NCBI GenBank assembly: GCA_018725485.1
Contig: QLUP01000012.1
Coordinates: 1-14,677 of the forward strand
Reading direction: 5' to 3'
DNA length: 14,677 nucleotides
Origin: Candidatus Lithacetigena glycinireducens
GTDB lineage: Bacteria; Coprothermobacterota; HKB111
The position numbers were made by a program, and so were the translations under genes. The notes beneath the pieces were generated by a model that saw only the letters and a list, made by a program, of their open reading frames with translations, made no database searches and was not told the DNA's origin. Within the stretch, counting starts at the first letter, position 1, and every line of letters starts with the position of its first letter. This document shows positions 166-14,600 of this stretch, piece by piece.

Positions 166-3100
166 TTATAACCTACGAATATTTTTTAATAAACAATCTA
201 AATACCTTTTAGCCCAATTTTGTACTTGTATTTCCGTGAATCTATGAGATTGATACCAAAAATTAAACCTCATCTCTCCATTATAGTAGTCAATGATTAG
301 AAATAGCCCCGCTATTTCATTAAGCGTTTCGGAAGTCAGATCCGGCAGTTCTTCTTTCATTATTGGCCCCAGAGATTCGAGCACTTCCACTCGTGGTTGA
401 ATATTGGATTCGCGAGGATAGTTATTAAGCATGATAAATGGATCGGTGAAGTATGTATCAATGTCCATACCTCTGAATGCAGTTATGTGATTGACCATAT
501 CCGCAACAGGATATCTGCTTCTATCGTTTATTTCCGTAATTAAATCGTGAGTATCTAACATCATTTTTCTTAAATCATCAACGATTGAGAGCTTTAGTGG
601 GAACGGTTGCACAAAAGGGCCAATAGTTCTATCAAATTCAGACGAGGGCCTGCTACTGACGATTGTTCCCACCACGACTTGATTTTGTCCTGTAATCTCA
701 CTGATGAGTTGTCCATAGGTGGCGCAAAGTATAGCAAAGGGAGAAACTTTAATATTTTTCCCAACTAATTGAAGATTACTCCACAAATTTTTTATTTGCT
801 TCGGCGTATAACAAGCAGACGGATAACTTTCAGTAGCTTTGTATCCGGAGTGGTTTGGCAGGAGCGTTGGCCCACTCACACCAGAGAACAATTTCTCAAA
901 GAACTCTCTATCCGCAACGATATCGGAGTTTATGTAATTTGTCTGCCATTTTACATAATCGGAATATTGAATAGATGGTAAATAGGTAACATCAATATCT
1001 TTAATAAGAGCAGAGTAGATTTGTCTTAAATCATCCACAAAAATTGATACCGAAGCCCCATCAAACTCTAGATGTTGGGTATGAAGTAGTACAAGAAACA
1101 TCTCTTGATCTAGTTTTATGCATTTGATTGTCCAAGTTGGCCTCTTGTTTGGATCAGGAGGAGAAGATCGCAACATGTCCGTTTGTTGTATGATAATTTG
1201 CGCACCTTCTTTGTTATCTGCATCTGTAAACAATTCCCGGTCGCTCGGCAGAACATCGCTCATTTCAACAAGAATTGCACTATCGTTAAAAAATTTATAT
1301 CTAAGTACTTCATGACGAAGAATGACTTGTTCTAAGGCGGATCGAAAGATCGCTTTATCTAAACTGGTATAGAACACAATAGGTATCAATAATCGTCCAT
1401 AATTTTTCTTGGCGAGTAGGAGCCATCTCTTTTGTTGCATTGATATCTGCCTTGTGTTCGATAAAGAAATTTGTTTTTTCGTTTTATTGTTGGTAACAGG
1501 TTGGGAAGTATCAATTTGGAGAACGCCAGCAAGATATGCGGAGAGCTTTCGTACTGTGGAATACTTATATATAATGGCTGGATGTAGTGAGCATTTAAAT
1601 TCTGATTGCAGATTGTTTCTAAGTTGAATTGAAGTGAGGGAATCCATGCCGTAATCGAAAAAGTCCTCATCCTTGATACCATCAGTCTGTTTAAGACCAA
1701 GGAATAGGTTAATGTGTTGCAACACTCTCTCTTGTATAAAAGAGATTTTATCGGTATTAGATAAATACTTGATTCTTGAAATAAAGTCGTCCGCCGTTAA
1801 TCGTTCTTTCTGCGATAATTTGTGTTGATTAGTTTCCAATAAAGAAAAGAAGCGATCGCCATTCAATTTGTTTGAATGTATGAATTGTTCCCAGTCAACA
1901 GGTGCATATATTGTTGAACGAACATGGTTTTTTAAAACAAGATCCAGCGCTTTTATGCCGTCCTCTGGCCGTATTAAGTTGATTCCGATTGCTCTTAGCT
2001 TCTCTACCACTTCCGGATATCTCACTAATGTACCTATATCCGACCAAGCACCCCATTGAATTACCGTGGCTGGCAAATTAAGAGATTTACGATAAGACAC
2101 CAGACTATTCATGAAACTATTCGCGGAAGCATGATTTGATTGACCAACATTGCCAATCGTACTCACAACCGAAGAAAATAACACAAAGAAATCAAGGTCT
2201 AGGTTTTCTTCCAGAGATAGAATGTGCAGGTTCCAAGAACCCAATACTTTGGCGCAGGCAGTAGTTAGAAATCTTTCGATGTTCTGTTGTAATATTATTC
2301 CATCATCAATTGCACCGGCCGCATGGATAATACCTCTCACTTGCACTGTTTTATTTAAATCCTTAAATAATTTCTTTAAGGATTCGTAGTCTGACACGTC
2401 GCCTTGAACGACATGCACATTTACACCCTTACTTCTGATTAAATCCACCTTTGTGCGTGTTACATCATCGATGGATGAATTCCTTCCCACGAGGACGATG
2501 TGTTGAGCACCGACTTGAGACATCCATTCGGCGACTTTCAGACCAATACCGCCAAAACCGCCGGTTATCACATATGCGCCATCATTTCTGAATTGTAATG
2601 AGTGATTACCTTTTAAAAAAGTATCTACTTTTTTATGGCTGAGACGCAGTGTATATCTCGTACCTTCCTTTAATACTATTTGACTTTCTTGATCAGATGC
2701 AAACATCTCATCAAGAAGGGACTCCGTTTGTGCCTCCGATTCTATATCAATTAACTTACAAAATAATTCCGGATGCTCAATCTCTATAACGCGGCACATT
2801 CCCCAGATTGATGCTTGGACAAGCGCCCCAGGACATGCTTGCTTATCTAGCATTTGCACGCCCTGAGTGATCACAAAAAGAGCTGGCGGATTAGACAGTC
2901 GGTTAACTATCGACTTCACGGCGTTTAATAATCCCCCGCAAGTTCTTAGATACTGGTTTTTGATAGTTGATGTATTCGAAGCCTCGTCTACTTTCTCATT
3001 CAAAGACCATAAGTAGAGAACCTTTTCAATAGGCTGTTTTATGTGGTCGAAAAGAATATCAAATTCTTCTGGTTTGATAGTATTCACTATATATTCTCTG

Positions 3101-6100
3101 CCAGCAACCACTTCTTTAAAGCTTTCTCCTTGTTTGACTACAACGCACTGTTTGTTGTTCGTTTCGAGTTTAGCTATTAAAGAATCACTAACGCCGGAAT
3201 TGTCAGCAAAAACAAGCACATTTTCAGCTGTTGTCTTGTCGGGTTCGGCGGTATATTTTGCAAAAATGATCGCTTGCGGCAACCCGCCACTAAGACTAAT
3301 TGATGAGCCGATGTCGTTCGACGAAAGAATGGAAATTTCCCCAAAGCCAAGATTCTTCAAAGTAGATTTCCACTGTTCGGGTGATAAAAGGGGGTAGTTT
3401 TTCCTCAAATCATAATCAGTAAAATTCCACCAACCGTCTGTCAGCCCAAAAGTGATATCAACCCAGCGTACAGGCGCAGTTCCTTCAAGGAGAATCATCA
3501 TGCCACTGGGTGCCAATATCTTTTTGATATTTTCAATGGTTTTTCTTAAATCTTTAGTTGCATGCAAAACATTTGTTGCTACGATGATATCGAATTTGTC
3601 TGTTTCTAATTTTTGACTTACCGCGTCCTTTTCCACATCAAACTGTGCATACGAAATAAAAGAGTAATCTGAAAAATTATCTTTTGCTTCCGATACGAAT
3701 CTACCGGAGATATCGGTAAACGTGTATAAAGATCGGTCCTGCGATAACTTCCCCAAAATCGATGTTGTAGTGCTGCCTGTTCCCGCGCCGATTTCAAGAA
3801 TTCTTATACCAATCCTTTTAGGAAGACTATTCTGTAGTTGATTTAGAGCTTCGGCAATGAGCATGTTCATCGCCTTTAGTGTGGGAGATTTGGTATACAA
3901 TTTCTTTAAAAGAGCAACATCGCCATTTGGAAATATCAAATCAAGCGGATTTACCTCACCTCGCAAAACTTTGGCAAGCCTGAGGCCGCACCGGTTGAGT
4001 AATTCAAATTCGGCTAAATCGTTACTGTTGTCCTGTATCGAAATCTCTCTTGTACGGGGTTTGTCAATAACTTTCCAACTATCGTTGTCTCGAGACAAAA
4101 CCCCTTCTTGCTCAAGAATCTCAAAAAATAATCTAACGAGCTTCTTATATCGCGGGGCGATGTTGAATTTCATTACAAAATCATCTGTCCGGATATCTTT
4201 TTGATCAAATGTAAAACCTAATTCATAAAAAGCATTTACTATAAATTGATAGGATAAGCGATCTAATTTATCCAGTTTGTCTTGATAACATCCAATATTG
4301 GTCGAAATAGCAACCTCGCTCGATTTTGTGTTAAGAACTTTCTTTAGATGTTGCGCGGTTGGAAAATATTTTGGGGCATTTCTATACTTAGGATGTTCCT
4401 TGTAGATGACTTCGTAAAAATGGTCGAGCCAATTTTCGCCTATTTTTTCTGTTTCTTGAATTGAGACTGGCAACTGCTTTGGCTCTAACCAATATTCTTG
4501 CTGCTGAAAGGGATAGGTCGGTAAATGAACTCTATGCGCATTCTTATTTGCATACAAAGCGCTCCAATCCGGCATTCCTCCGGATTCATAGGCTTTCAGT
4601 AGAGAAACTAACTCTTGTGTGTTTTTATCGTCAGGCAGTTTTTCTTTTTTATCTCTTATTTTCTTGTATTCATCAATGGATTTGCATTTGAGAAACCCGT
4701 CGAGTTGTTTTTTGAGGTCAGATATAGATGATGAGATAAACCCAACTCTGTTTTCAAAGTGCATTCTTCCAATATTCGTAGTGTAACAAAAGTCAGACAA
4801 ATTAATATCTTTTACATCATTCAGAAAATTCAGATAACGTTTTGCTAAATCCTTCGTTACTTGTTCGCTTCGCGCACTGATTGTGCAGAGGCAGACGATT
4901 TCTTTTTTTATATCAGTAAAAGGATGTGCTGGATGCTCTGCGACGACAAGATGTGCATTTGTGCCACCAAGACCAAAAGCACTGACGCCCGCCACTCTTG
5001 GACTATCTGTACGCCAGGGAATAGTTTTGGTATTAACATAAAACGGCGATTCATCCAATTGAGTCTGCGGATTTGGATTTTTAAAATGAATTGTCGGGGG
5101 AATTTGTCTATGCTTCAATGCAAGCACTGTTTTAAAAAGGCCTGCCATTCCCGAAGCCCAGCCGAGATGCCCGATATTTGATTTGACGCTACCTATCGCG
5201 CAAGAATGTTTTTCGCTATTATTAAATACTTGTTTGAGTGCCGTTATCTCAATAAGATCACCAAGTTGAGTTGCTGTGCCATGGCACTCAACAAAACTCA
5301 GATCTCTTGGTTCAATATCTGCTACTGCCAATGCTTCTGCTATAACGGCAGCTTGGCCATCTACACTCGGCGCTGAATACCCAATTTTGTTCAGTCCATC
5401 ATTATTCACTGCTGTTCCTTTGATTACCGCATATATCGCGTCCTTGTCGCGGATAGCCTCAGACAGCTTTTTGAGCAGGATCACGCCAACGCCACTGCCG
5501 AAAACGGTTCCCCGGGCCTCCGAGTCAAAAGGACGGCAATGGCCATCCGGAGAGAGAATCATGTCTTGCTGATACAAATATCCTGTCTTTTGCGGGCAAA
5601 GAACTGTCACAGCACCCGCGAGTGCCATATCGCATTCTCCATTTATAATACTTTGACAAGCGAGGTGTATCGCCACTAATGCCGTAGAGCAAGCTGTTTG
5701 TACATTAATACTTGGTCCTCGCAGATTGAGTTTATATGCAACACGAGTAGCGAGATAGTCTCTATCGTTTGCGGTCAAGAGTTGCAACTCGTTTATTGAT
5801 TCAAGGAACGTACGGTTGGGATGATATCCTATGTTTGGGTGGACATTATTGATGAGATACGTACTAAATCCTGAGCCAGCAAATACGCCAATGCTTCCTT
5901 TGAATGTATATGGATCATACCCGCCATCCTCCAAAGCTTCCCACGAACACTCCAAAAATTTTCTGTGTTGGGGATCTAAAATCTTCGCATCATATTCAGA
6001 AAAACCGAAGAATTGAGCATCAAAGGATTTCGCATCTTCCAATACGGATCCAGCTTTAACAAAATTGGGATCTTTAATTAATTTTTCGTCGCCATTTTCT

Positions 6101-6252
6101 AGTTCTTCGTCGTTAAAAAATGAGATTGATTCTTTACCGTTCTTCAAATTATTCCAAAACTCGGTAGCGTTCTTCGCTCCTGGAAAGCAACAAGCCATAC
6201 CTACGATGGCAATGTCATTCTCGAAATTTTTTTGTTTAAATCTATCTTTCAT
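166..6252 (-). CDS. Hybrid PKS-NRPS megasynthase: KS-cMT-KR-ACP-C, no AT domain
   Basis: This 2028-residue protein extends and releases a polyketide/peptide chain. The KS (about 13-440) has the catalytic triad Cys188 (in QTACST), His324 (ECHGTA) and His362 (NIGHL). Residues 450-590 are a KS-to-AT type linker running straight into the post-AT signature LPTYPFQQQEYWL, so the roughly 300-residue AT is absent. A C-methyltransferase (about 605-990) carries the SAM motif LEIGAGTGSTT at 819-829. A KR structural half (about 1005-1215) precedes the catalytic KR (1224-1460), with GGFGGIG and LFSS; the usual catalytic Tyr is His1374 (in GQSNHASAN). The ACP attachment Ser1538 lies in YGMDSL. The C-terminal condensation domain (about 1597-2028) has QHLEFDG, keeping the catalytic second His1727 of HHxxxDG. 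There is no thioesterase. The start overlaps the A-T gene by 11 nt. The domain calls are secure. The substrate, the KR activity and the release partner are inferred. Confidence 0.93.
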   Translation of the reverse strand: MKDRFKQKNFENDIAIVGMACCFPGAKNATEFWNNLKNGKESISFFNDEELENGDEKLIKDPNFVKAGSVLEDAKSFDAQFFGFSEYDAKILDPQHRKFLECSWEALEDGGYDPYTFKGSIGVFAGSGFSTYLINNVHPNIGYHPNRTFLESINELQLLTANDRDYLATRVAYKLNLRGPSINVQTACSTALVAIHLACQSIINGECDMALAGAVTVLCPQKTGYLYQQDMILSPDGHCRPFDSEARGTVFGSGVGVILLKKLSEAIRDKDAIYAVIKGTAVNNDGLNKIGYSAPSVDGQAAVIAEALAVADIEPRDLSFVECHGTATQLGDLIEITALKQVFNNSEKHSCAIGSVKSNIGHLGWASGMAGLFKTVLALKHRQIPPTIHFKNPNPQTQLDESPFYVNTKTIPWRTDSPRVAGVSAFGLGGTNAHLVVAEHPAHPFTDIKKEIVCLCTISARSEQVTKDLAKRYLNFLNDVKDINLSDFCYTTNIGRMHFENRVGFISSSISDLKKQLDGFLKCKSIDEYKKIRDKKEKLPDDKNTQELVSLLKAYESGGMPDWSALYANKNAHRVHLPTYPFQQQEYWLEPKQLPVSIQETEKIGENWLDHFYEVIYKEHPKYRNAPKYFPTAQHLKKVLNTKSSEVAISTNIGCYQDKLDKLDRLSYQFIVNAFYELGFTFDQKDIRTDDFVMKFNIAPRYKKLVRLFFEILEQEGVLSRDNDSWKVIDKPRTREISIQDNSNDLAEFELLNRCGLRLAKVLRGEVNPLDLIFPNGDVALLKKLYTKSPTLKAMNMLIAEALNQLQNSLPKRIGIRILEIGAGTGSTTTSILGKLSQDRSLYTFTDISGRFVSEAKDNFSDYSFISYAQFDVEKDAVSQKLETDKFDIIVATNVLHATKDLRKTIENIKKILAPSGMMILLEGTAPVRWVDITFGLTDGWWNFTDYDLRKNYPLLSPEQWKSTLKNLGFGEISILSSNDIGSSISLSGGLPQAIIFAKYTAEPDKTTAENVLVFADNSGVSDSLIAKLETNNKQCVVVKQGESFKEVVAGREYIVNTIKPEEFDILFDHIKQPIEKVLYLWSLNEKVDEASNTSTIKNQYLRTCGGLLNAVKSIVNRLSNPPALFVITQGVQMLDKQACPGALVQASIWGMCRVIEIEHPELFCKLIDIESEAQTESLLDEMFASDQESQIVLKEGTRYTLRLSHKKVDTFLKGNHSLQFRNDGAYVITGGFGGIGLKVAEWMSQVGAQHIVLVGRNSSIDDVTRTKVDLIRSKGVNVHVVQGDVSDYESLKKLFKDLNKTVQVRGIIHAAGAIDDGIILQQNIERFLTTACAKVLGSWNLHILSLEENLDLDFFVLFSSVVSTIGNVGQSNHASANSFMNSLVSYRKSLNLPATVIQWGAWSDIGTLVRYPEVVEKLRAIGINLIRPEDGIKALDLVLKNHVRSTIYAPVDWEQFIHSNKLNGDRFFSLLETNQHKLSQKERLTADDFISRIKYLSNTDKISFIQERVLQHINLFLGLKQTDGIKDEDFFDYGMDSLTSIQLRNNLQSEFKCSLHPAIIYKYSTVRKLSAYLAGVLQIDTSQPVTNNKTKKQISLSNTRQISMQQKRWLLLAKKNYGRLLIPIVFYTSLDKAIFRSALEQVILRHEVLRYKFFNDSAILVEMSDVLPSDRELFTDADNKEGAQIIIQQTDMLRSSPPDPNKRPTWTIKCIKLDQEMFLVLLHTQHLEFDGASVSIFVDDLRQIYSALIKDIDVTYLPSIQYSDYVKWQTNYINSDIVADREFFEKLFSGVSGPTLLPNHSGYKATESYPSACYTPKQIKNLWSNLQLVGKNIKVSPFAILCATYGQLISEITGQNQVVVGTIVSSRPSSEFDRTIGPFVQPFPLKLSIVDDLRKMMLDTHDLITEINDRSRYPVADMVNHITAFRGMDIDTYFTDPFIMLNNYPRESNIQPRVEVLESLGPIMKEELPDLTSETLNEIAGLFLIIDYYNGEMRFNFWYQSHRFTEIQVQNWAKRYLDCLLKNIRRL

Positions 6253-8101
6253 AACGTTTTCTTGCGATAATTCTTTTATCTGATAAAGAATTGCTGTGTT
6301 TTTGAGGTTGCCGGTTTGCTACTCCCGAAGATTCGTGCCTTTTTCTTGCTTCCAATGCTTTAGCCAAAGAGCCAACGGTCGGATATTGAAACAGGTCGAC
6401 AATTTCTACTTTAAACGGCAAGTGCTGCGAGAGTCTTTGGTGTATATAAGTAGCGAGCAATGAATTGCCCCCAAGTTCAAAAAAATTATCGTTTTCACCA
6501 ACTTCTTCCATATGGAGAACTTCTTTCCAAATTTGAGCTATTTCAATTTCTGTTTGTGCATGCGGTGGCACAAAGGCGGTCATCATTTGGGGTCTTTCTA
6601 ACGTTGGACTTGGAAGAGATTTTTTATCAATTTTTCCTGTTGGAGTAAGTGGCAACGATTCCAGAATTATAAATCGTGCAGGAATCATATATTCAGGCAA
6701 TTTCTCTTTGAGAAAAGATGTCCATTTAGCGTGCAGTGCTATAGATTTAAAATGTGGTCTATATTTATCTTTTAACACTACGTACGCCACCAACATAGTT
6801 TGGCCAGGAACGTTTTCTCTACCGTCAACAACACATTCTTTTATCGCTGAATGTTCAGATAATAGTGTCTCGACCTCTCCAAGTTCTACTCTATAGCCGC
6901 GTATCTTGACTTGACGATCTTTCCTGCCAACAAATTCAATGTCACCACTTGCAAGAAGGCGCACGAGATCTCCGGTCTTATATAATCTTTCGCCTATTAC
7001 AGGATGGTGAATAAAGACTGATTCAGTAAGAGATTGATTATTAATATACCCCTCTGCAAGACTTGCGCCGCCTATATACAGTTCTCCAACTTCACCTAAC
7101 GAGACATTGTTTAGTGAATCATCAAAAACATATGTCCGGACATTTTGTATAGGTTTTCCTATAGGAGGCAAGTTGGGCCAATTTTTGGGTGGCCCAGAAA
7201 GCTCATAAGCAGTAACAACATGAGTTTCTGTTGGGCCATATTGGTTGATTAACTTGCAATGAGGCAATGATTCAAAAAAATCTCTTATGGCAGGAGTGAT
7301 CCGTAATTGTTCGCCTGCTGTAATAACTTCTCGCAAGCAATTGAGGTGGCATTCTTCCAAACTCGCCAGCTGCTGGATGGCAACAAACGGCATAAAGATG
7401 CGCTCAATTCCTTGAGAAACAATAAGATCTGCCAATTTTCTCGGATCACGACGCGTTTCCTCATCGCACAAAACAAGCGTGCCGCCGCATGAAAGCGTTG
7501 AAAATATTTCCTGAAATGAGACATCAAAACCAATCGGGGCATACTGCAGAGTAATACCACCGAAGCAGTCCGATGATTGTTTTTGCCAATTGATCAGGTT
7601 ATCAAGCGCTTTATGTCTCATCGCCACCCCTTTTGGTTTACCGGTAGAGCCGGAAGTGTATATGACATATACTGTTTTTCCTTCGACAACGCTTGATTTT
7701 GTTCTTCGTGAGTGCACCGCATCGTCTACATTCACTACCTGCAGATTTGAATTATTGGGGATAAATTTGTGAATCAAGTTGTTGTTGGTAAGCAGAGTTT
7801 TCGTTCCAGAATCGGATAACATATACCTTATCCGATCTTTTGGAAATGAAATATCAAGAGGCACGTATCCTGCGCCCATCTTAATGACCGCCATCAGTGA
7901 AGCGATCAAATCGATTGATCGTGGGAGATATAGTCCTATTAGGATATTACTTTTTAGATCAGCAGCAGGAATCTTGTCAATAATGGCATTTGCTCGTTCC
8001 GCCAGTTCAGCATAACTGATTTTGCTATCGCGAAAAATAATCGCTGTTCTATTTGGCTCTTTCGAAGATATTTCAAAAAATTTACCAACTACATTAATCA
8101 T
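6242..8101 (-). CDS. Stand-alone NRPS loading module, A-T, predicted proline-selective
   Basis: This 619-residue protein would activate an amino acid as its adenylate and load it on its own carrier domain. A-domain core motifs are present in order: YVIYTSGSTGKPKG (145-158), NQYGPTETH (286-294), LYKTGDL (373-379), GRKDRQVKIRGYRVELGEVE (392-411) and the catalytic Lys490 in TPTGKID. The thiolation domain has LGGNSL with attachment Ser547. No condensation domain precedes the A domain, as expected of a chain-initiating module. By-eye alignment to GrsA gives the specificity residues D193, V194, Q197, F236, I260, A262, Q287, V295, V296, K490. This is close to the proline code DVQLIAHVVK, with Gln instead of His at the seventh position. 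A basic tail (about 585-619) may dock to the megasynthase, whose start it overlaps by 11 nt. A GGAG Shine-Dalgarno lies 12 nt before the ATG, inside the end of the previous gene. The A-T call is very sure; proline is probable. Confidence 0.93.
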   Translation of the reverse strand: MINVVGKFFEISSKEPNRTAIIFRDSKISYAELAERANAIIDKIPAADLKSNILIGLYLPRSIDLIASLMAVIKMGAGYVPLDISFPKDRIRYMLSDSGTKTLLTNNNLIHKFIPNNSNLQVVNVDDAVHSRRTKSSVVEGKTVYVIYTSGSTGKPKGVAMRHKALDNLINWQKQSSDCFGGITLQYAPIGFDVSFQEIFSTLSCGGTLVLCDEETRRDPRKLADLIVSQGIERIFMPFVAIQQLASLEECHLNCLREVITAGEQLRITPAIRDFFESLPHCKLINQYGPTETHVVTAYELSGPPKNWPNLPPIGKPIQNVRTYVFDDSLNNVSLGEVGELYIGGASLAEGYINNQSLTESVFIHHPVIGERLYKTGDLVRLLASGDIEFVGRKDRQVKIRGYRVELGEVETLLSEHSAIKECVVDGRENVPGQTMLVAYVVLKDKYRPHFKSIALHAKWTSFLKEKLPEYMIPARFIILESLPLTPTGKIDKKSLPSPTLERPQMMTAFVPPHAQTEIEIAQIWKEVLHMEEVGENDNFFELGGNSLLATYIHQRLSQHLPFKVEIVDLFQYPTVGSLAKALEARKRHESSGVANRQPQKHSNSLSDKRIIARKRYER

Positions 8102-8106
8102 ATGCT

Positions 8107-8949
8107 TTAGACACTCCGTTTCTTAAGTAGGAGAGTTTCGCTTAATTTGCTTGCTTGCACAGAACTACAGACGGTGAATAAATCTAATTGTGGTAATGTA
8201 TACAGATCTTCATACAAAATCTTACCCATTAAGATTGGATTGCGGGCAATAACTTCTACCGAGCTTTTAGAAGTATCGTAAATTCTTTGTAAAATTACTC
8301 CTTTATTCAAAAGTCCATTAGCAAGAAAAACGATATCGATCTTCTCGTAATTTAGCGTTTCGGCTATGGCAGATTCGATTTTCACATTTTCTATGTTTGG
8401 TAACGCTCTTTTAATAACCCTCTTGGCAATATCTCCGATCTCAGATCTTTTTTCTATACCGATCACCCGTTTGACTCCGTTATTGAGCTTATATATCTCC
8501 ATCAACGTTTCTGGAAATGGCCCGCATCCAAGCATGATCACGGTACAATCAGATAATGTCCGGGCTAACAGAGACAGCTCCTTATTGACTCCAACGTAGT
8601 CCTCTTCTGAAAGTGCGGAGTGAGTACTATTATGCAGACTCTTATCTGTTAAAAATTTGTTTGCTATACTAACCTCGATAAGGTTGATATACTCATGCCA
8701 TTTTCCGGCCAAGTATTTCTGTATCGTTGCGAAACGAATATCGTTTTGTAGTTTAGTTACAATATAATCGTTCTCAATAGAGGACAAAAACGCCCATAAT
8801 GATTCCATTACGGAGATAAACCTCTCTGACTGATCAGAAGGGATGAGTTCGATTTGACTTTCAAAATATTGGAGCTTATCCATGCATTTATCAACGCCGA
8901 TTTCATTATGAATTGTTACTTTTTTTAAAGATGAGTTATTCATAGTCAT
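8107..8949 (-). CDS. SAM-binding Rossmann protein, nicotianamine-synthase/methyltransferase-like
   Basis: This 280-residue protein has a helical N-terminal half (about 20-130) followed by a Rossmann core. The core has the glycine motif IMLGCGPFPET at 138-148, an acidic residue ending the next strand (RVIGIEK, 161-167), and IDIVFLANGLLNKG (204-217). The GCGPFPET stretch, preceded by a helical domain, resembles nicotianamine synthase and its relatives (GSGPLPLTS in plants). Those enzymes use SAM as an aminobutyryl donor, while ordinary N- or O-methyltransferases share the fold. I cannot choose between these activities from sequence. Its place between the PPTase (4-nt ATGA overlap) and the A-T gene (5-nt gap) implies a tailoring role, or supply of the amine accepted by the terminal C domain. 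There is no signal peptide or membrane segment, so it is cytosolic. Confidence 0.6.
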   Translation of the reverse strand: MTMNNSSLKKVTIHNEIGVDKCMDKLQYFESQIELIPSDQSERFISVMESLWAFLSSIENDYIVTKLQNDIRFATIQKYLAGKWHEYINLIEVSIANKFLTDKSLHNSTHSALSEEDYVGVNKELSLLARTLSDCTVIMLGCGPFPETLMEIYKLNNGVKRVIGIEKRSEIGDIAKRVIKRALPNIENVKIESAIAETLNYEKIDIVFLANGLLNKGVILQRIYDTSKSSVEVIARNPILMGKILYEDLYTLPQLDLFTVCSSVQASKLSETLLLKKRSV

Positions 8950-9755
8950 TTTTTTGTGATATTTATCTTAACATTTTCCGATGCGCCGAATAATTCAGCT
9001 TTTAGTCCTGTGAATAGTATTGGCTCATTATTTCTCGGATGTACAGAAATCGAAATGACATGGGAGCGATCAATTAAAAGGGTAGCGAATTGCCAGCGTT
9101 TCGAGGCGTGATTTGGTATATGACCATTCTGAAGTTTAATATCTTTATCATTACTCACATGAAACCAAAAACCATTTGATAAGCCACTAATTCCCTCCCC
9201 GGTACCCTTAAGAAAAGATTCTTTTAATGTCCAGTAAATTACCGCGCGTAAACATTTCTCTGATTTTGGCAACGATCTCACGTCTTCTGCTTCTCTCGGA
9301 TCGAGGATCGAAATATAATCATTGCGATTATCTAATGCGTTAAAATTTTCTATGTCAATCCCTATCGAAAAATCTGATAATGCGCAACAAACTATTTCTC
9401 GCGTACGAGACAGATTAAAATGCACCCTATTTGGTAAACTAATCTGTTCTGGTTTGCCTAACTGAGATTTGCGAAATATCCAATCTCTTGGGGATATAGG
9501 AAAATGTGAACTCAACGATGTTCGCAATAACGCATGGGCGGTGATAAAAGAATTTCTATCCTCAATAAATCTGAATGCTAATGCTTTTTTACGCTCATCT
9601 TCACATAAGACGCCAAAATATTCATCCCGAATGAGGTTAATAACATTTGGTACGCGAACAGCATACACGAATGTATGTCCAAGATCACGATCAAGGGCTT
9701 GATAACGACAAACCTGTTTGGAATTATATGCTAAATTCATTACCTGCATAACCAT
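8946..9755 (-). CDS. Sfp-type 4'-phosphopantetheinyl transferase
   Basis: This enzyme transfers phosphopantetheine from CoA to carrier-domain serines; here the likely targets are Ser547 of the A-T protein and Ser1538 of the megasynthase. At 269 residues it has the length of Sfp/EntD-class enzymes and the expected motif order: GKPE at 100-103, FNLSRT at 113-118, GIDIE at 132-136 with the Mg-binding Asp134 and Glu136, and WTLKESFLKG at 175-184 with Glu179 and Lys183. It overlaps the VanX-like gene by 32 nt if the first ATG is used. ATGs at codons 3 and 6 are alternatives, and no strong Shine-Dalgarno decides between them. Its presence makes the cluster self-sufficient for carrier activation. 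Confidence 0.93.
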   Translation of the reverse strand: MVMQVMNLAYNSKQVCRYQALDRDLGHTFVYAVRVPNVINLIRDEYFGVLCEDERKKALAFRFIEDRNSFITAHALLRTSLSSHFPISPRDWIFRKSQLGKPEQISLPNRVHFNLSRTREIVCCALSDFSIGIDIENFNALDNRNDYISILDPREAEDVRSLPKSEKCLRAVIYWTLKESFLKGTGEGISGLSNGFWFHVSNDKDIKLQNGHIPNHASKRWQFATLLIDRSHVISISVHPRNNEPILFTGLKAELFGASENVKINITKK

Positions 9756-10533
9756 AGAAAGCCACTGCTTGTTTACTGATTAAAGCCCACATCTGGTCTC
9801 CATAACTAAAATGCCACCACTCTTTAGGATGCTGAGTAAATCCTTCAGCACTCATGAGATGGTATAACAACCGCCGATTCTTTTGCGCCTCGATAATCGT
9901 AAAACTTTTATGATCTTGGCAGTTCTCAAAATAGGTTGAGTGTGATCTTTCTGTGATATCATCAAAAATTGAACCCATTTCTAACAGATGACCTGTTTCT
10001 TTGAAGCAAAGTGTTAAATCTACGGCCGCACCGGTAGAGTGTGGTGGAATTGAAGTGAGTAACCCCTCTTTATTTTTAGCGCCTTTTGCCCAATAAGAAC
10101 TGGCCTCTTTTTTAATCCATTCCTCATCTTTTTCTGGATATGTTGAACGTAAATATTGAGGAACCCACTGATGATAAAAATAGTTCTGGACTGCCAATGG
10201 TCGAAAGACATCAAAAATAAACAGCTCGATTCCAACAAATTTTAATTTCTCGTTAATCCGACTTAATTTTTCAACAACAGTTTTACGAGATCTCAATTCG
10301 GGTATCGAGCCAGGGATTGATTGGTAATACGGCGGATTAAATTGTGAGTGGTAGTAATTTACGCCCGTGATATCGAATTCACGTAAATCAACCAAAGTTT
10401 CTCTAGAAAGAGGGTTTTTATTATCGATTTTAATCATCTGATAATTACGAACAGATTCAATATCAAAATCAGGATTAGGTATAGGTACATCCTTCCATTT
10501 CAGTATGTCGTTGTAGGTATTATCCATTTTCAT
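9724..10533 (-). CDS. VanX-like D-alanyl-D-alanine dipeptidase (peptidase family M15D)
   Basis: This is a predicted zinc D,D-dipeptidase of 269 residues, longer than VanX (about 200). The zinc and catalytic residues are all present with VanX spacing: His165 and Asp172 in PPHSTGAAVDL (HxxxxxxD), Glu238 and His241 in EWWHF, and Arg111 in FDVFRPLAV, matching the transition-state arginine. No signal peptide is visible, so it acts in the cytoplasm as VanX does. The extra length is an N-terminal region of about 45 residues plus insertions around 120-160. It starts 2 nt after the proS stop and overlaps the PPTase gene. Within a biosynthetic operon it could trim the product, detoxify it, or alter cell-wall precursors as immunity. 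No VanH/VanA ligase pair is present, so glycopeptide resistance proper is not supported. The family is sure; the role is unknown. Confidence 0.9.
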   Translation of the reverse strand: MKMDNTYNDILKWKDVPIPNPDFDIESVRNYQMIKIDNKNPLSRETLVDLREFDITGVNYYHSQFNPPYYQSIPGSIPELRSRKTVVEKLSRINEKLKFVGIELFIFDVFRPLAVQNYFYHQWVPQYLRSTYPEKDEEWIKKEASSYWAKGAKNKEGLLTSIPPHSTGAAVDLTLCFKETGHLLEMGSIFDDITERSHSTYFENCQDHKSFTIIEAQKNRRLLYHLMSAEGFTQHPKEWWHFSYGDQMWALISKQAVAFYGYAGNEFSI

Positions 10534-10535
10534 AG

Positions 10536-11993
10536 CTAATAGGATTTGGCAAACAACACTCGCTTATCTGATGGTCTTCCGCTTTTCACGCATACACCTG
10601 CTTCTTTAGGTTGATCAAACGGAATGCAACGAATGGTGGCGCCAGTTTCTTCTTTGATTTGTTTTTCAACCTCCGCGTCACCGCACCAGTGCGTGAGGAC
10701 GAAATTACCATCGTTTATCGCACGCACGAAATCTTCCCATGAATCCACGTTTTTTGTATGCATGGTAAGACGCTCTTTTGAACGAGCAAAGAGATCACTT
10801 TGAATGGTATCAAGAAGTGTTGTAATTGCTTCTGGAAGAGAAGTAAGAAACACGGTCTGTTTCGCTCCGGTATCTCTGCGCGCAAGGATGGCGGAATCGC
10901 TTGTAATGTCTTTCGGCCCGAGTTCGATTCGCACTGGCACACCCTTTTTCTCCCATTCATAAAACTTTTCACCCGGGCGCAGTTCACGGATATCAAGCTC
11001 ACAACGAATACCGGCATCGTTTAATCTACGCGCAATCTCACGCGCCGCATCCGTGACTCGCCCCACATCAGCCCCATGACCTATGGTAGTGATTACAGCC
11101 TGTATTGGAGCGATGCGAGGAGGTAGTATGAGTCCCTTGTCGTCGCTGTGGGACATAATAAGACCTCCGATGGTGCGCGTGGAAAGTCCCCAACTGGTTT
11201 GCGAGGCATACTTACGTTCTCCTTTCTCATCCAAAAACATTACGTCGAATACCTTGGCGAAGTTTTCGCCAAGATTGTGCGATGTGGAGAATTGAAGCGC
11301 TTTGCCGTCTTGCATCATCGCTTCAATAGTGTATGTCTTGTACGCTCCGGCAAATTTTTCGGATTCCGATTTCATGCCTGGCACGACGGCGATTGCCATG
11401 ATATTCTCGGCAAAGTCACGGTATACTTCAAGCATGTCTCGCGCAAACGAGTCTGCTTCTTCCGGCATTGCATGCGCCGTGTGTCCTTCCTGCCAGAGAA
11501 ATTCGGTTGTGCGCAAGAAAAGCCGCGGACGCATTTCCCAACGCACCACGTTTACCCATTGATTGATGAGAAGCGGAAGATCGCGATACGATTGTATCCA
11601 GTTTGAAAAAGCGTCATATATGATTGTCTCCGACGTCGGACGCACAACAATCGGCTCCTCAAGCTCTTTGCCGCCAGCATGCGTCACCACCGCAACCTCT
11701 GGTGCAAATCCTTCAACGTGCTGCACTTCTTTTTTGAGAAACTTCTCCGGAATAAAGAGGGGAAAGTACGCATTCTTTACTCCAATCTTCTTGAAACGCA
11801 TATCAAGTATGCTTTGAATACGTTCCCAAAGCGCATATCCGTACGGCTTGATGATCATCGTGCCGCGCACGGGACCGTTTTCGGCCAAATCAGCCGCAGC
11901 GATTATATCCAAGTACCATGCTGAATAGTCTTCGTGACGAGGGGTAATCTTTCTCTCTTCATTTTTGTCTGTATTATTTTTGATCATAGTCAT
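10536..11993 (-). CDS. proS: Prolyl-tRNA synthetase, archaeal/eukaryotic type (class II)
   Basis: This enzyme charges tRNA(Pro) with proline. The 485-residue protein shows class II features: motif 1 region around 55-82, the TSE loop (RPTSET, 118-123), motif 2 (FLRTTEFLWQEGHTAH, 159-174) and motif 3 (about 268-296). An anticodon-binding domain follows from about 295, then a C-terminal domain ending in tyrosine (FAKSY). The short form without the bacterial editing insertion, together with the terminal Tyr, marks the archaeal/eukaryotic (ProS type 3) subgroup. Of the four zinc cysteines I recall for Thermus ProRS, Cys437 and Cys468 remain, while the others are Val442 and Ser471. The gene overlaps matB by 4 nt (ATGA) and ends 2 nt before the VanX-like gene. 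Its GC content looks higher than its neighbours' (sampled lines 45-55% versus 37-38%). It is either the host's housekeeping gene captured in the operon or a resistant second copy. No editing domain is seen. Confidence 0.96.
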   Translation of the reverse strand: MTMIKNNTDKNEERKITPRHEDYSAWYLDIIAAADLAENGPVRGTMIIKPYGYALWERIQSILDMRFKKIGVKNAYFPLFIPEKFLKKEVQHVEGFAPEVAVVTHAGGKELEEPIVVRPTSETIIYDAFSNWIQSYRDLPLLINQWVNVVRWEMRPRLFLRTTEFLWQEGHTAHAMPEEADSFARDMLEVYRDFAENIMAIAVVPGMKSESEKFAGAYKTYTIEAMMQDGKALQFSTSHNLGENFAKVFDVMFLDEKGERKYASQTSWGLSTRTIGGLIMSHSDDKGLILPPRIAPIQAVITTIGHGADVGRVTDAAREIARRLNDAGIRCELDIRELRPGEKFYEWEKKGVPVRIELGPKDITSDSAILARRDTGAKQTVFLTSLPEAITTLLDTIQSDLFARSKERLTMHTKNVDSWEDFVRAINDGNFVLTHWCGDAEVEKQIKEETGATIRCIPFDQPKEAGVCVKSGRPSDKRVLFAKSY

Positions 11994-13495
11994 TTGAATA
12001 AGTTATTGTATGTCGAACGTAATATGCTTTTTTGTACTTTGCCCATTGCGTTCTTCGGCAACGCGTCGGTAAATATTATCTTGAGCGGTACTTTATACTG
12101 CGCAAGATCTCTTTTTAGATCAGTTAGTAAATCGGGTTCTGATAAATTAAAAGTTTGTTTCGTAACTACTACTGCGACTACGCCTTCACCGAAATCATGA
12201 TGGGGTACGCCAATAACCGCACTCTCGATTACGCCAGAAATCTTATTTAACCGTTCCTCAACTTCTTTAGGATACACATTTAATCCGCAAGTGATAATTA
12301 AATCTTTTTGTCTCCCAACAATATGCAAGTATCCTTTCTGATCGATGAAGCCCAAGTCGCCCGTGATAAAAAAACCGTCGCTTCTAAATTCAACCTTAGT
12401 TTTTTCTGGTGCTTGCCAATAACCTTTGAATACATTAGGCCCCCTTACTTCGATAAGCCCAATTTTGCCATCAGGTAATATGTCGCCAGTGGATTGATCG
12501 GTGACTCGCACTGAAATACCATGCAAGGGGAAACCAACTGTGCCTGGAATACGCTCGCTGTCATACGGATTGGAAGTAATCATGCCTGTTTCCGTCATGC
12601 CATATCGCTCCAGTATTGTATGTTCTGTCCTCTTGAACCATTCTTCATGGGCATCCGCCAGCAGCGGGGCTGAACCCGAAATGAATAAGCGAATAGGTTT
12701 AACTAAATCTGGCATTAAGCACTCATCTTGCATTAATAATGTGTAATACGTTGGCACCCCCATCATCACCGTTGCGCTTGAAATGTGTTTGATTACCTCG
12801 TTAACATCAAATTTCTGCAAGAAGATCATCGACGAACCGGCGACCAAAGTTACATTGGTTGCGACAAATAATCCATGTACATGAAAGATAGGGAGAGCGT
12901 GCAGTAGCATATCTGGTTGAGAGAATTTCCAAGTTTTACAGAGAGCTTCAGCATTAGAACGCAGGTTTTCGTGCGTAATCATTGCTCCTTTAGATCTGCC
13001 GGTCGTCCCCGATGTATACACGATCGCGGCAAGATCATCATCTTTACATTTCGCATCTTTAAAGTTGACTGATTCTTTCTTTGCTTTCTCTAAAAAAGTT
13101 CCGGAAGTTCCGTCGTTGCCAAGAGTTTCTATGGAAATATCTAGTTTCCCGATTATTGATCGCACTAATTCTTTTTTATCAATATCAACAATAACAACTT
13201 TCGGTTGTGAGTCTTGAATAAAATATTCAAGTTCGCTCTTTGTATAGGCAGGGTTGATGGGCGTAAACACAAATCCTGCGCGCAGACAGGCGATATACAC
13301 GATAAGTGCTTCAGCGCTTTTCTCGGTATACATTATTACCCTGTCACCCTTTCGTACGCTTTTACTAATTAGTGTATTCGCAAATCGAGACGACAATGCG
13401 TTCATTTGGGCATACGTAATAACTGATCCATCGGGTCGGATAATAAAGTTGTTGTCTGAAACTAAAACTTTTTTATATTTGGTTAAAAAATTCAT
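11990..13495 (-). CDS. matB: Malonyl-CoA synthetase (MatB-like acyl-CoA ligase)
   Basis: This ANL-superfamily ligase is predicted to make malonyl-CoA from malonate, ATP and CoA, the extender unit needed by the KS. At 501 residues it matches MatB length. The P-loop is YTSGTTGRSKGAMITHENL (160-178). The stretch LPIFHVHGLFVATNV (201-215) and ERYGMTETGM followed by SNPYDSERIPGTVGFP (297-323) are the segments I associate with MatB rather than with acetyl- or fatty-acyl-CoA ligases. The hinge motif is GRQKDLI and the catalytic lysine is Lys486 in MGKVQK. It starts 2 nt after the regulator gene and overlaps proS by 4 nt, so it is early in the operon. A dedicated malonyl-CoA source would make sense in a host with little or no fatty-acid synthesis. 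The ANL family is certain. Malonate specificity is likely; methylmalonate or a related diacid is the main alternative. Confidence 0.85.
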   Translation of the reverse strand: MNFLTKYKKVLVSDNNFIIRPDGSVITYAQMNALSSRFANTLISKSVRKGDRVIMYTEKSAEALIVYIACLRAGFVFTPINPAYTKSELEYFIQDSQPKVVIVDIDKKELVRSIIGKLDISIETLGNDGTSGTFLEKAKKESVNFKDAKCKDDDLAAIVYTSGTTGRSKGAMITHENLRSNAEALCKTWKFSQPDMLLHALPIFHVHGLFVATNVTLVAGSSMIFLQKFDVNEVIKHISSATVMMGVPTYYTLLMQDECLMPDLVKPIRLFISGSAPLLADAHEEWFKRTEHTILERYGMTETGMITSNPYDSERIPGTVGFPLHGISVRVTDQSTGDILPDGKIGLIEVRGPNVFKGYWQAPEKTKVEFRSDGFFITGDLGFIDQKGYLHIVGRQKDLIITCGLNVYPKEVEERLNKISGVIESAVIGVPHHDFGEGVVAVVVTKQTFNLSEPDLLTDLKRDLAQYKVPLKIIFTDALPKNAMGKVQKSILRSTYNNLFK

Positions 13496-13497
13496 AA

Positions 13498-13710
13498 CTA
13501 TTTTATTAAATCCTCAATTGGAGCATTTAACGCTTTGGCAATCTTTTTCAAGGTTTCAATAGTAGGATTATCTTGCTTTCCTGCCTCAATGTTAATAAGT
13601 GTATTATTAGAAACATCAGCAAGACGAGCTAGTTTTTCCTGCGATAAGCCCGCTTTTTCTCGCAATCTCTTTACGGTTTTTGCTATGTTGTTTTTACTTG
13701 ACTCTGCCAT
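13498..13710 (-). CDS. XRE/Cro-family transcriptional regulator, probable autoregulator of the operon
   Basis: This 70-residue protein is a single HTH_3 domain. LREKAGLSQEKLARLADVS (16-34) forms helices 1-2, NNTLINIEAGK (35-45) contains the recognition helix, and TIETLKKIAKALNAPIEDLI (50-69) closes the fold. No sensory domain is fused, as in Cro/C-protein-like DNA binders. It is the first gene of the operon, 2 nt upstream of matB. Its start codon directly abuts a 26-bp imperfect inverted repeat that overlaps the predicted promoter, so repression or activation of its own operon is the natural inference. The start used is the first ATG in frame, and the protein is complete from there. Confidence 0.92.
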   Translation of the reverse strand: MAESSKNNIAKTVKRLREKAGLSQEKLARLADVSNNTLINIEAGKQDNPTIETLKKIAKALNAPIEDLIK

Positions 13711-13866: not shown

Positions 13867-14190
13867 TCATGGCTGTGGACATCGGTATTCAGTTCCGTGC
13901 TTTAGCATCATATACACAACGGTCACCATGTGCCGTCGCAGACACACCAGTGCTTGGCTCTTCGTCTTCCCCTCGGACACTTTCTTCTTGAAGTATGCGC
14001 GGGCAGCGTTGTTTCCGGTCGGCGATATCTGCGAGAGCGCCATGCGATGGAACGCGCAATTCAATCGTCGGTTGCCACTCTTGGTCTTTCGGTATCTCGT
14101 CGTCTTTCCGCTGGAATGTTCTCGAGGTGCACACCCCGCATATTTGGCAAGCGATGCCGGACTCTTGAAGCGTGCAATGTCGCCAATATC
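13867..14190 (-). pseudogene. IS110-family transposase, C-terminal fragment
   Basis: The minus strand reads an open frame of 107 codons ending in TGA at 13867. It begins IGDIARFKSPASLAKYAG, then APREHSSGK, SGNRRLNCAFHRMA and ARAYFKKKVSEGKTK, and ends LKHGTEYRCPQP. This order is the C-terminal Transposase_20 region of IS110 elements (GDI.RF.S...LA.YAGL.P....SG, then the helical SxN-R-L...A...A tail). The N-terminal DEDD nuclease part is missing, and the fragment joins directly to an IS3-type sequence. It is therefore a non-functional remnant. Confidence 0.75.
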
Positions 14191-14600
14191 AACCTTCCAG
14201 TTTCCATAGAATGACTCTTGATATCCATTCTGCCATGGTGCTTTTTAGACATTGATTGAGCAATTTTGAAGTTTGCAAGGATTGCACGGAACAGTTGCGA
14301 CCTCTCCTAGGTTTTATGCCAAACTTCTTCATGACCCTGAGGATAGGCTTGCGGTTCATCCCAAGCTCCATAGCAACTCGCTTGTGACCGTAACTGGGAT
14401 GCTTGTCGAGCACTCCCTCAATCTTTTCTCGGAGCGCCATGTCTCTCGGGTCGAGTAGCGAGGAATATCAGAATGTATTCTTTAACGTCTTTTGGCACAT
14501 GCACCCCCTTCTTGCTGACATATGTTTGATTGTTTTCCATAACACAAGATTACTCTATTAATTAGAGATACTTTGTGTCCAAGATTTGGGGTACCTCTCA
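14176..14600 (-). mobile_element. Decayed IS3-family element, right-hand copy
   Basis: The outer end (14526-14600) is identical to 1-75 and starts TGAGAGGTACCCC on the minus strand. The element then runs into transposase sequence and stops where the IS110-type fragment begins, near 14176-14190. Only about 425 bp remain of an element normally around 1.2 kb or more, so the catalytic core and the opposite end are lost. This copy cannot move by itself, though its intact end could still be used by a transposase supplied in trans. Confidence 0.75.
14190..14540 (-). pseudogene. IS3-family transposase, frameshifted and internally deleted
   Basis: Translation starts at ATG 14540 (MENNQTYVSKKGVHVPKDVK) and stops at 14418 after 40 codons. 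One extra base near 14452-14454 explains this: removing it restores ATDPRDMALREKIEGVL, followed by the HTH_21 region HPSYGHKRVAMELGMNRK and VMKKFGIKPRR. An internal deletion near 14300 then skips most of the DDE (rve) domain, rejoining at LFRAILANFKIAQSMSKK. A second frameshift in the T-run at 14242-14246 precedes APWQNGYQESFYGNWK, the conserved IS3 stretch around the last catalytic Glu. The frame then merges into the IS110-type fragment. It is clearly a pseudogene. Confidence 0.75.

Follow-up and report, generated by a model that had tools for sequence, protein, structure and literature searches.

The window analysed here, which is the whole 14,677-nt contig QLUP01000012.1 of assembly GCA_018725485.1 numbered along its forward strand, contains a genuine and conserved operon that is under selection, in which seven enzyme genes join a nonribosomal peptide synthetase (NRPS) loading protein to a polyketide synthase (PKS) lacking an acyltransferase (AT) domain. 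In all probability it is a biosynthetic cluster that uses a starter unit of the proline type, and we estimate at about 50% the probability of the fuller reading, that the operon is mobile, is of Patescibacteria-type ancestry, and specifies a proline-mimicking hybrid small molecule together with its own resistance gene. The candidate resistance gene encodes a second prolyl-tRNA synthetase (ProRS), and on the best reading the product would be a C-methylated polyketide amide, primed by proline or by its analogue azetidine-2-carboxylate (AZE), which mimics proline and for which this ProRS would be the antidote.

Organisation and conservation of the operon

Eight open reading frames, all on the minus strand, are tightly packed with gaps of 2, 2 and 5 nt and overlaps of 4, 32, 4 and 11 nt, exactly as an earlier annotation of the sequence (the original prediction) had described them; its family assignments for all eight, and its designation of the whole as an NRPS/AT-less PKS operon with its own malonyl-CoA synthetase and phosphopantetheinyl transferase (PPTase), agree with the Pfam and NCBIfam matches. 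Exact short peptides, a probe sensitive to close relatives only, were used to scan 84,980 genomes and yielded one further locus, on the 150-kb contig JAGWVF010000001.1 of Patescibacteria group bacterium REEB413 (locus L003). The search for the same gene order that the original prediction had called for is answered there: the seven genes from matB to the large synthase recur in unchanged order with 42-72% protein identity, the 32-nt and 11-nt overlaps are identical, and the active-site motifs are retained. Because the seven-gene order recurs, the overlaps are the same, and synonymous sites are saturated between the two operons while dN is 0.21-0.50, the arrangement is not due to chance, and the operon is under purifying selection. 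No further copy was found in class, order and phylum samples amounting together to about 1,100 Patescibacteria.

The first gene on the minus strand encodes a 70-aa XRE-type regulator (13498-13710) recognised by an HTH_3 match. It is absent from the REEB413 operon, so that the regulator lies outside the conserved unit. There follow MatB, a 501-aa malonyl-CoA synthetase (11990-13495; NCBIfam PRK07514, 742 bits against a cut-off of 558; 67% identical to its REEB413 counterpart); the 485-aa ProRS, of type I, the archaeal/eukaryotic kind (10536-11993; TIGR00408, 572 bits against a cut-off of 437; 72%); a 269-aa VanX-like M15 peptidase (9724-10533; PF01427, E 1.1e-27; 68%); a 269-aa PPTase of the Sfp/HetI type (8946-9755; PF01648 (ACPS), E 1.9e-12, and HetI, E 2.8e-22; 43%); and a 280-aa S-adenosylmethionine (SAM)-dependent enzyme, probably of the nicotianamine synthase (NAS) superfamily (8107-8949; 53%). 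The peptidase belongs to the M15 fold family and scores 60.6 bits with the VanX equivalog model, under its cut-off of 320; its R/H/D/E/H active-site residues are present, and the motifs HSTG-x-AVD (HSTGAAVD) and EWWH are kept in both operons. The last two genes encode a 619-aa adenylation-thiolation (A-T) loading protein (6242-8101; AMP-binding and PP-binding matches; 56%) and a 2028-aa synthase (166-6252; 60% identical over 2023 residues). Pfam matches in the latter place a ketosynthase (KS) at 4690-6219, a C-methyltransferase (cMT) with its helix-turn-helix segment (HTH_51) at 4075-4287 and its catalytic domain at 3499-3798, a ketoreductase (KR) at 2038-3225, an acyl carrier protein (ACP) at 1531-1728 and a condensation (C) domain at 184-1392. 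Active-site motifs are intact in the KS (TACST, HGTAT, N-x-GHL), the ACP (GMDSL), the T domain (GGNSL) and the C domain (QHLEFDG), and the methyltransferase motif reads EIGAGTG in the window and EIGSGTG in REEB413. A role in anti-phage defence was considered and rejected, since PADLOC gave one marginal match only.

In REEB413 the operon is an island, because its GC content (0.39-0.47) lies below that of the sampled remainder of the genome (0.54-0.58); it lies between a gene for a phage terminase large subunit and one for a serine recombinase. Directly downstream (L003:16118-24251) lies a run of genes that looks like a second metabolite cluster, encoding a TrmB-type regulator, an aminotransferase, a 523-aa protein without family, a ThiF-like protein, a nitroreductase, a methyltransferase-like protein and a histidine kinase.

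Origin of the contig

The window is one complete contig (C24) of a metagenome-assembled genome (MAG) of 1.24 Mb in 204 contigs, 83% complete, whose phylum is represented by nine genomes only in the set used. When composition was compared contig by contig, with individual contigs of the bin and of Patescibacteria, the tetranucleotide profile of the window correlated with that of its own bin at r 0.08, against 0.91-0.98 for most large contigs of the bin; the value was 0.66 with REEB413 and reached its maximum, 0.83, with a contig from the Patescibacteria genome G877 whose GC content is similar. Since the profile misfits the bin and resembles Patescibacteria, the contig has probably been either mis-binned or recently acquired by transfer, between which we do not choose. 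The closest relative and the composition both indicate Patescibacteria, so that the reduced-genome host envisaged in the original prediction is likely. The mismatch with the bin, the island context in REEB413 and the insertion sequence (IS) flanks described below had escaped that prediction.

It might be argued instead that the operon truly belongs to the MAG through a recent horizontal acquisition, and that no mis-binned Patescibacteria contig is involved. The contig was after all binned there, its GC content (0.408) is close to that of the bin (about 0.39), IS sequence is found at both of its ends, and the operon is an island in REEB413 as well. Set against the two tetranucleotide correlations, and against the finding that the IS end occurs at no other place in the bin, these points leave such an origin rather doubtful. 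The question concerns the host, not the function of the operon.

The IS sequence consists of a 75-nt direct repeat, the end of an IS, at 1-75 and 14526-14600, the copies being 100% identical and in the same direction, and of decayed remnants at 13880-14600 which comprise an IS3-like orfA with an HTH_21 match (E 2.2e-5) and an IS110-like tail recognised by eye; all are listed, like the operon, on the minus strand. The remnant has no match in plasmids. A composite transposon was considered on the strength of the repeats, and the description was reduced to 'IS-flanked' when the left copy was seen to run off the contig. Rfam and tRNA scans of the window returned nothing. Four other contigs of the bin (C8, C16, C23 and C156; L038, L040, L042 and L050) also deviate in composition (r 0.34-0.66), which may point to further foreign or mobile DNA in the bin; two KS-like genes lie on C156.

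Starter unit and polyketide extension

The two operons have the same specificity-determining pocket in the A domain, D V Q F I A Q V V, as read from alignments at the standard positions. In this region the nearest solved A domains in the PDB are those of gramicidin S synthase 2 (GrsB) and tyrocidine synthase 2 (TycB), the first modules of which take proline. The pocket is therefore of the proline type, as had been proposed from the sequence, and the serine of the adjoining carrier domain is intact; a change from His to Gln in the pocket could signal a proline analogue.

Within the synthase no PF00698 domain is found, and the KS is followed by a linker like those of CurL and RhiE and then by the cMT, which is an AT-less arrangement. 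Among the PKS relatives found, the nearest, at about 40% identity, are modules from cyanobacteria that have an integrated AT and a dehydratase (DH)-like domain. In the KR of both operons His replaces the catalytic Tyr. An initial conclusion that the KR is inactive on this account was withdrawn, the cyanobacterial synthase having the same His, and because of this shared residue both a ketone and a hydroxyl are retained in the proposed structure.

The following pathway can be proposed. The PPTase would arm the T and ACP domains, and MatB would provide malonyl-CoA. The A-T protein would load L-proline or AZE, the latter perhaps made by the NAS-family enzyme through cyclisation of SAM. The KS would then add one malonyl unit, the cMT would introduce an alpha-methyl group, and the KR may reduce the ketone. 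Release of the 2-methyl-3-hydroxy(or oxo)-3-(azacyclyl)propanoyl chain would fall to the C-terminal C domain, which would transfer it to an amine or alcohol acceptor; this core structure was in its essentials put forward in the original prediction, and the proline-type starter pocket renders it plausible. The VanX-like peptidase may trim, activate or detoxify the product. Finally, the product, or AZE itself, would disturb the function of the bacterial-type ProRS or of prolyl sites in proteins, while the type I ProRS would allow the producer to go on translating. The product, the formation of AZE, the target and the role in resistance are all inferred.

The nicotianamine synthase-like enzyme

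Formation of an azetidine ring from SAM is known from plant nicotianamine synthases, and AzeJ and VioH are bacterial AZE synthases that cyclise SAM (PMC11794875). The SAM enzyme of the window is probably related to the first of these groups: it matches CntL at E 1.4e-6, which is weak and below the family cut-off, and the PDB entry for CntL at E 2.5e-5, and gives no Pfam NAS match itself. Of two further homologues found in Patescibacteria, one exceeds the cut-off of the Pfam NAS family, and the motif GxGPxPxT is common to all; none was found in viral contigs or in plasmids. An AlphaFold model of the protein had a mean predicted local distance difference test (pLDDT) score of 57 and was not used for fold search. 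In genome G905 (L144:9653-13803) an NAS-family gene adjoins genes for a D-Ala-D-Ala ligase and an apparent class I lysyl-tRNA synthetase.

We propose that the enzyme is a putative AZE synthase or aminocarboxypropyl transferase. AZE formation, which was overlooked in the original prediction, is a tentative suggestion by analogy and, taken by itself, somewhat less likely than not, although it would link the SAM enzyme with the proline-type A domain and with the extra ProRS. The AzeJ relatives of Patescibacteria make up one clade of a cluster type that carries aminoacyl-tRNA synthetase (aaRS) genes, and many members of this type are bounded by mobile-element genes (PMC11794875).

If the enzyme acted instead as CntL does, it might add aminocarboxypropyl units to the proline-derived polyketide or to an acceptor amine, giving an opine-type metallophore, a metal chelator, in which case the ProRS would not be a resistance gene. 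CntL, a D-histidine aminobutanoyltransferase, is indeed the sole named sequence match of the enzyme, and units of this kind could be attached to the free amine of a polyketide-peptide. Yet the conserved unit includes neither an opine dehydrogenase (CntM-like) nor an importer or exporter gene, and the scheme does not account for a second ProRS that both operons retain, so that we regard a metallophore as unlikely.

The second prolyl-tRNA synthetase

The most informative gene of the operon is the one for ProRS, which the original prediction did not recognise as a second copy of a different class. It belongs to family I, and the bin and REEB413 each encode a separate ProRS of the bacterial type, so a second synthetase stands beside the housekeeping one as in self-resistance by duplication of an aaRS target. 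Duplicate aaRSs in biosynthetic clusters confer self-resistance in the known cases of AcmD and SbzA (PMC12945691), and AZE is a toxic substrate of ProRS (PMC5741666). Self-resistance is, by this analogy, the best explanation of the second synthetase. That the ProRS rather plays a biosynthetic part, supplying Pro-tRNA or an activated prolyl unit or being repurposed like SbzA, with no protective function, has in its favour that aaRS-like proteins are known to carry out tRNA-dependent steps in clusters of this kind (PMC12945691) and that the gene is, judged by position, cotranscribed, but is improbable given that the enzyme is full-length and well conserved, that the operon's domain matches include no tRNA-dependent ligase family, and that activation of the starter is already provided for by the A-T protein.

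A tree of 31 type I ProRS sequences (the window and 30 from Patescibacteria) unites the enzymes of the window, REEB413 and G877 in a single clade supported at 100/99. G877 also has a separate bacterial-type ProRS, its type I enzyme being a second copy. There the gene (L119:8103-13814) adjoins those for a DapF-like epimerase, two D-Ala-D-Ala-ligase-like ATP-grasp proteins and C39-like peptidases, a neighbourhood that looks like another candidate ProRS-linked peptide pathway. Ten other type I ProRS neighbourhoods were without the other genes of the operon. Two tandem type I ProRS genes occur in one Patescibacteria genome (G874:C3:297445-300439), and in G949 (L122:4728-9447) genes for a reverse-transcriptase-domain protein, an archaeal-type SAM synthetase, an S51-like peptidase and a second type I ProRS stand in a row.

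Evidence against the proposal, and its implications

Several observations weigh against a proline mimic with its own resistance gene. A PDB profile search with the SAM enzyme, taken to E 10, returned CntL and no AzeJ or VioH chain. Of 239 Patescibacteria, 43 have a ProRS of type I, and in some genomes no other ProRS was detected; because the type is not rare there, the operon enzyme is distinguished by duplication and linkage and not by type alone. Phe235, next to the residue that binds the substrate in ProRS (a Gln), was rejected as a mark of resistance, since three other, unrelated type I enzymes from Patescibacteria have it. Human type I ProRS activates AZE too (PMC5741666), so that a switch of type would not by itself exclude AZE from the enzyme. 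Lastly, the operon encodes no discrete trans-acting AT, and no PF00698 protein was found in the REEB413 sequence used. A FabD-like protein is encoded at C122 of the bin, to which the operon contig may not belong. The ACP might be malonylated by itself, by direct loading from MatB or by an unrecognised transferase. Nor was a CoaE found in the REEB413 sequence, which does encode a second PPTase outside the operon (G009:C3:12798-13076). The cluster had been called self-contained, which holds for MatB and the PPTase and fails for the AT, and for CoA, malonate and SAM, which must come from elsewhere.

A more speculative extension, on which we would place little weight, is that an NAS-family enzyme has turned into a one-substrate AZE synthase, and that Patescibacteria spread a mobile operon which couples a polyketide toxin primed by AZE to an antidote, the class-switched ProRS. 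The PKS would be malonylated without an acyltransferase, perhaps by MatB directly, CoA and malonate would be drawn from the host cell, and the product would serve an episymbiont as a chemical weapon or tool.

The genomes of Patescibacteria are tiny; for the most part these bacteria are uncultivated episymbionts, and little is known of how they act on other cells. Biosynthetic gene clusters have been reported from them earlier in general terms (PMC9927545). A complete PKS-NRPS operon that is conserved and mobile and has a resistance-type ProRS would, if the proposal is correct, supply a definite small molecule for which a target is predicted. ProRS is the drug target of halofuginone (PMC7916415), and a bacterial product that discriminated between the two ProRS classes would be useful. 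The operon also poses the biochemical question of how an AT-less PKS is loaded where the genome shows no acyltransferase.

Comparison with known systems

The same gene set was found neither in the literature nor in plasmids nor, as regards close relatives, in the genomes scanned, save for the REEB413 locus, of which no paper found gives a description. Known kinds of system, the hybrid PKS-NRPS and aaRS-based self-resistance, are here combined in a manner not found described, in a putative ultra-small host. The REEB413 operon shares the seven genes in order, the domain string, the A-domain code and the two overlaps; it differs in sequence, in lacking the HTH gene, and in being a low-GC island beside a terminase and a serine recombinase, whereas the window has IS flanks. 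A module encoded on a Dolichospermum plasmid (L146) beside a glycine amidinotransferase gene has the order A-T-KS-AT-DH-cMT-KR-ACP, and so resembles the window in the succession of A-T, KS, cMT and KR, in the KR-motif His and at about 40% identity. In contrast to the window system it is a single protein, has an AT and a DH-like domain, and is without a C-terminal C domain and without ProRS.

With the staphylopine enzyme CntL and the nicotianamine synthases the SAM enzyme shares the GxGPxPxT SAM-binding segment and a weak but significant similarity, whereas the identity is very low and the setting is an NRPS-PKS one with no opine dehydrogenase partner. The AZE clusters of azetidomonamide (AzeJ), vioprolide (VioH) and clipibicyclene have in common with the window a SAM-dependent enzyme beside NRPS genes and a proline-type building block and, for AzeJ-type relatives in Patescibacteria, nearby aaRS and mobile-element genes (PMC11794875). 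Their AZE synthases AzeJ and VioH are class I methyltransferase-like, whereas the window has an NAS-family protein and joins an AT-less PKS, MatB, an M15 peptidase and ProRS in one operon. Finally, the clusters for ascamycin (AcmD) and SB-203208 (SbzA) likewise enclose an extra aminoacyl-tRNA synthetase (PMC12945691); these are an AlaRS and an IleRS in Streptomyces, while the window offers a ProRS of the other class, with a putative protective role, in a putative Patescibacteria host.

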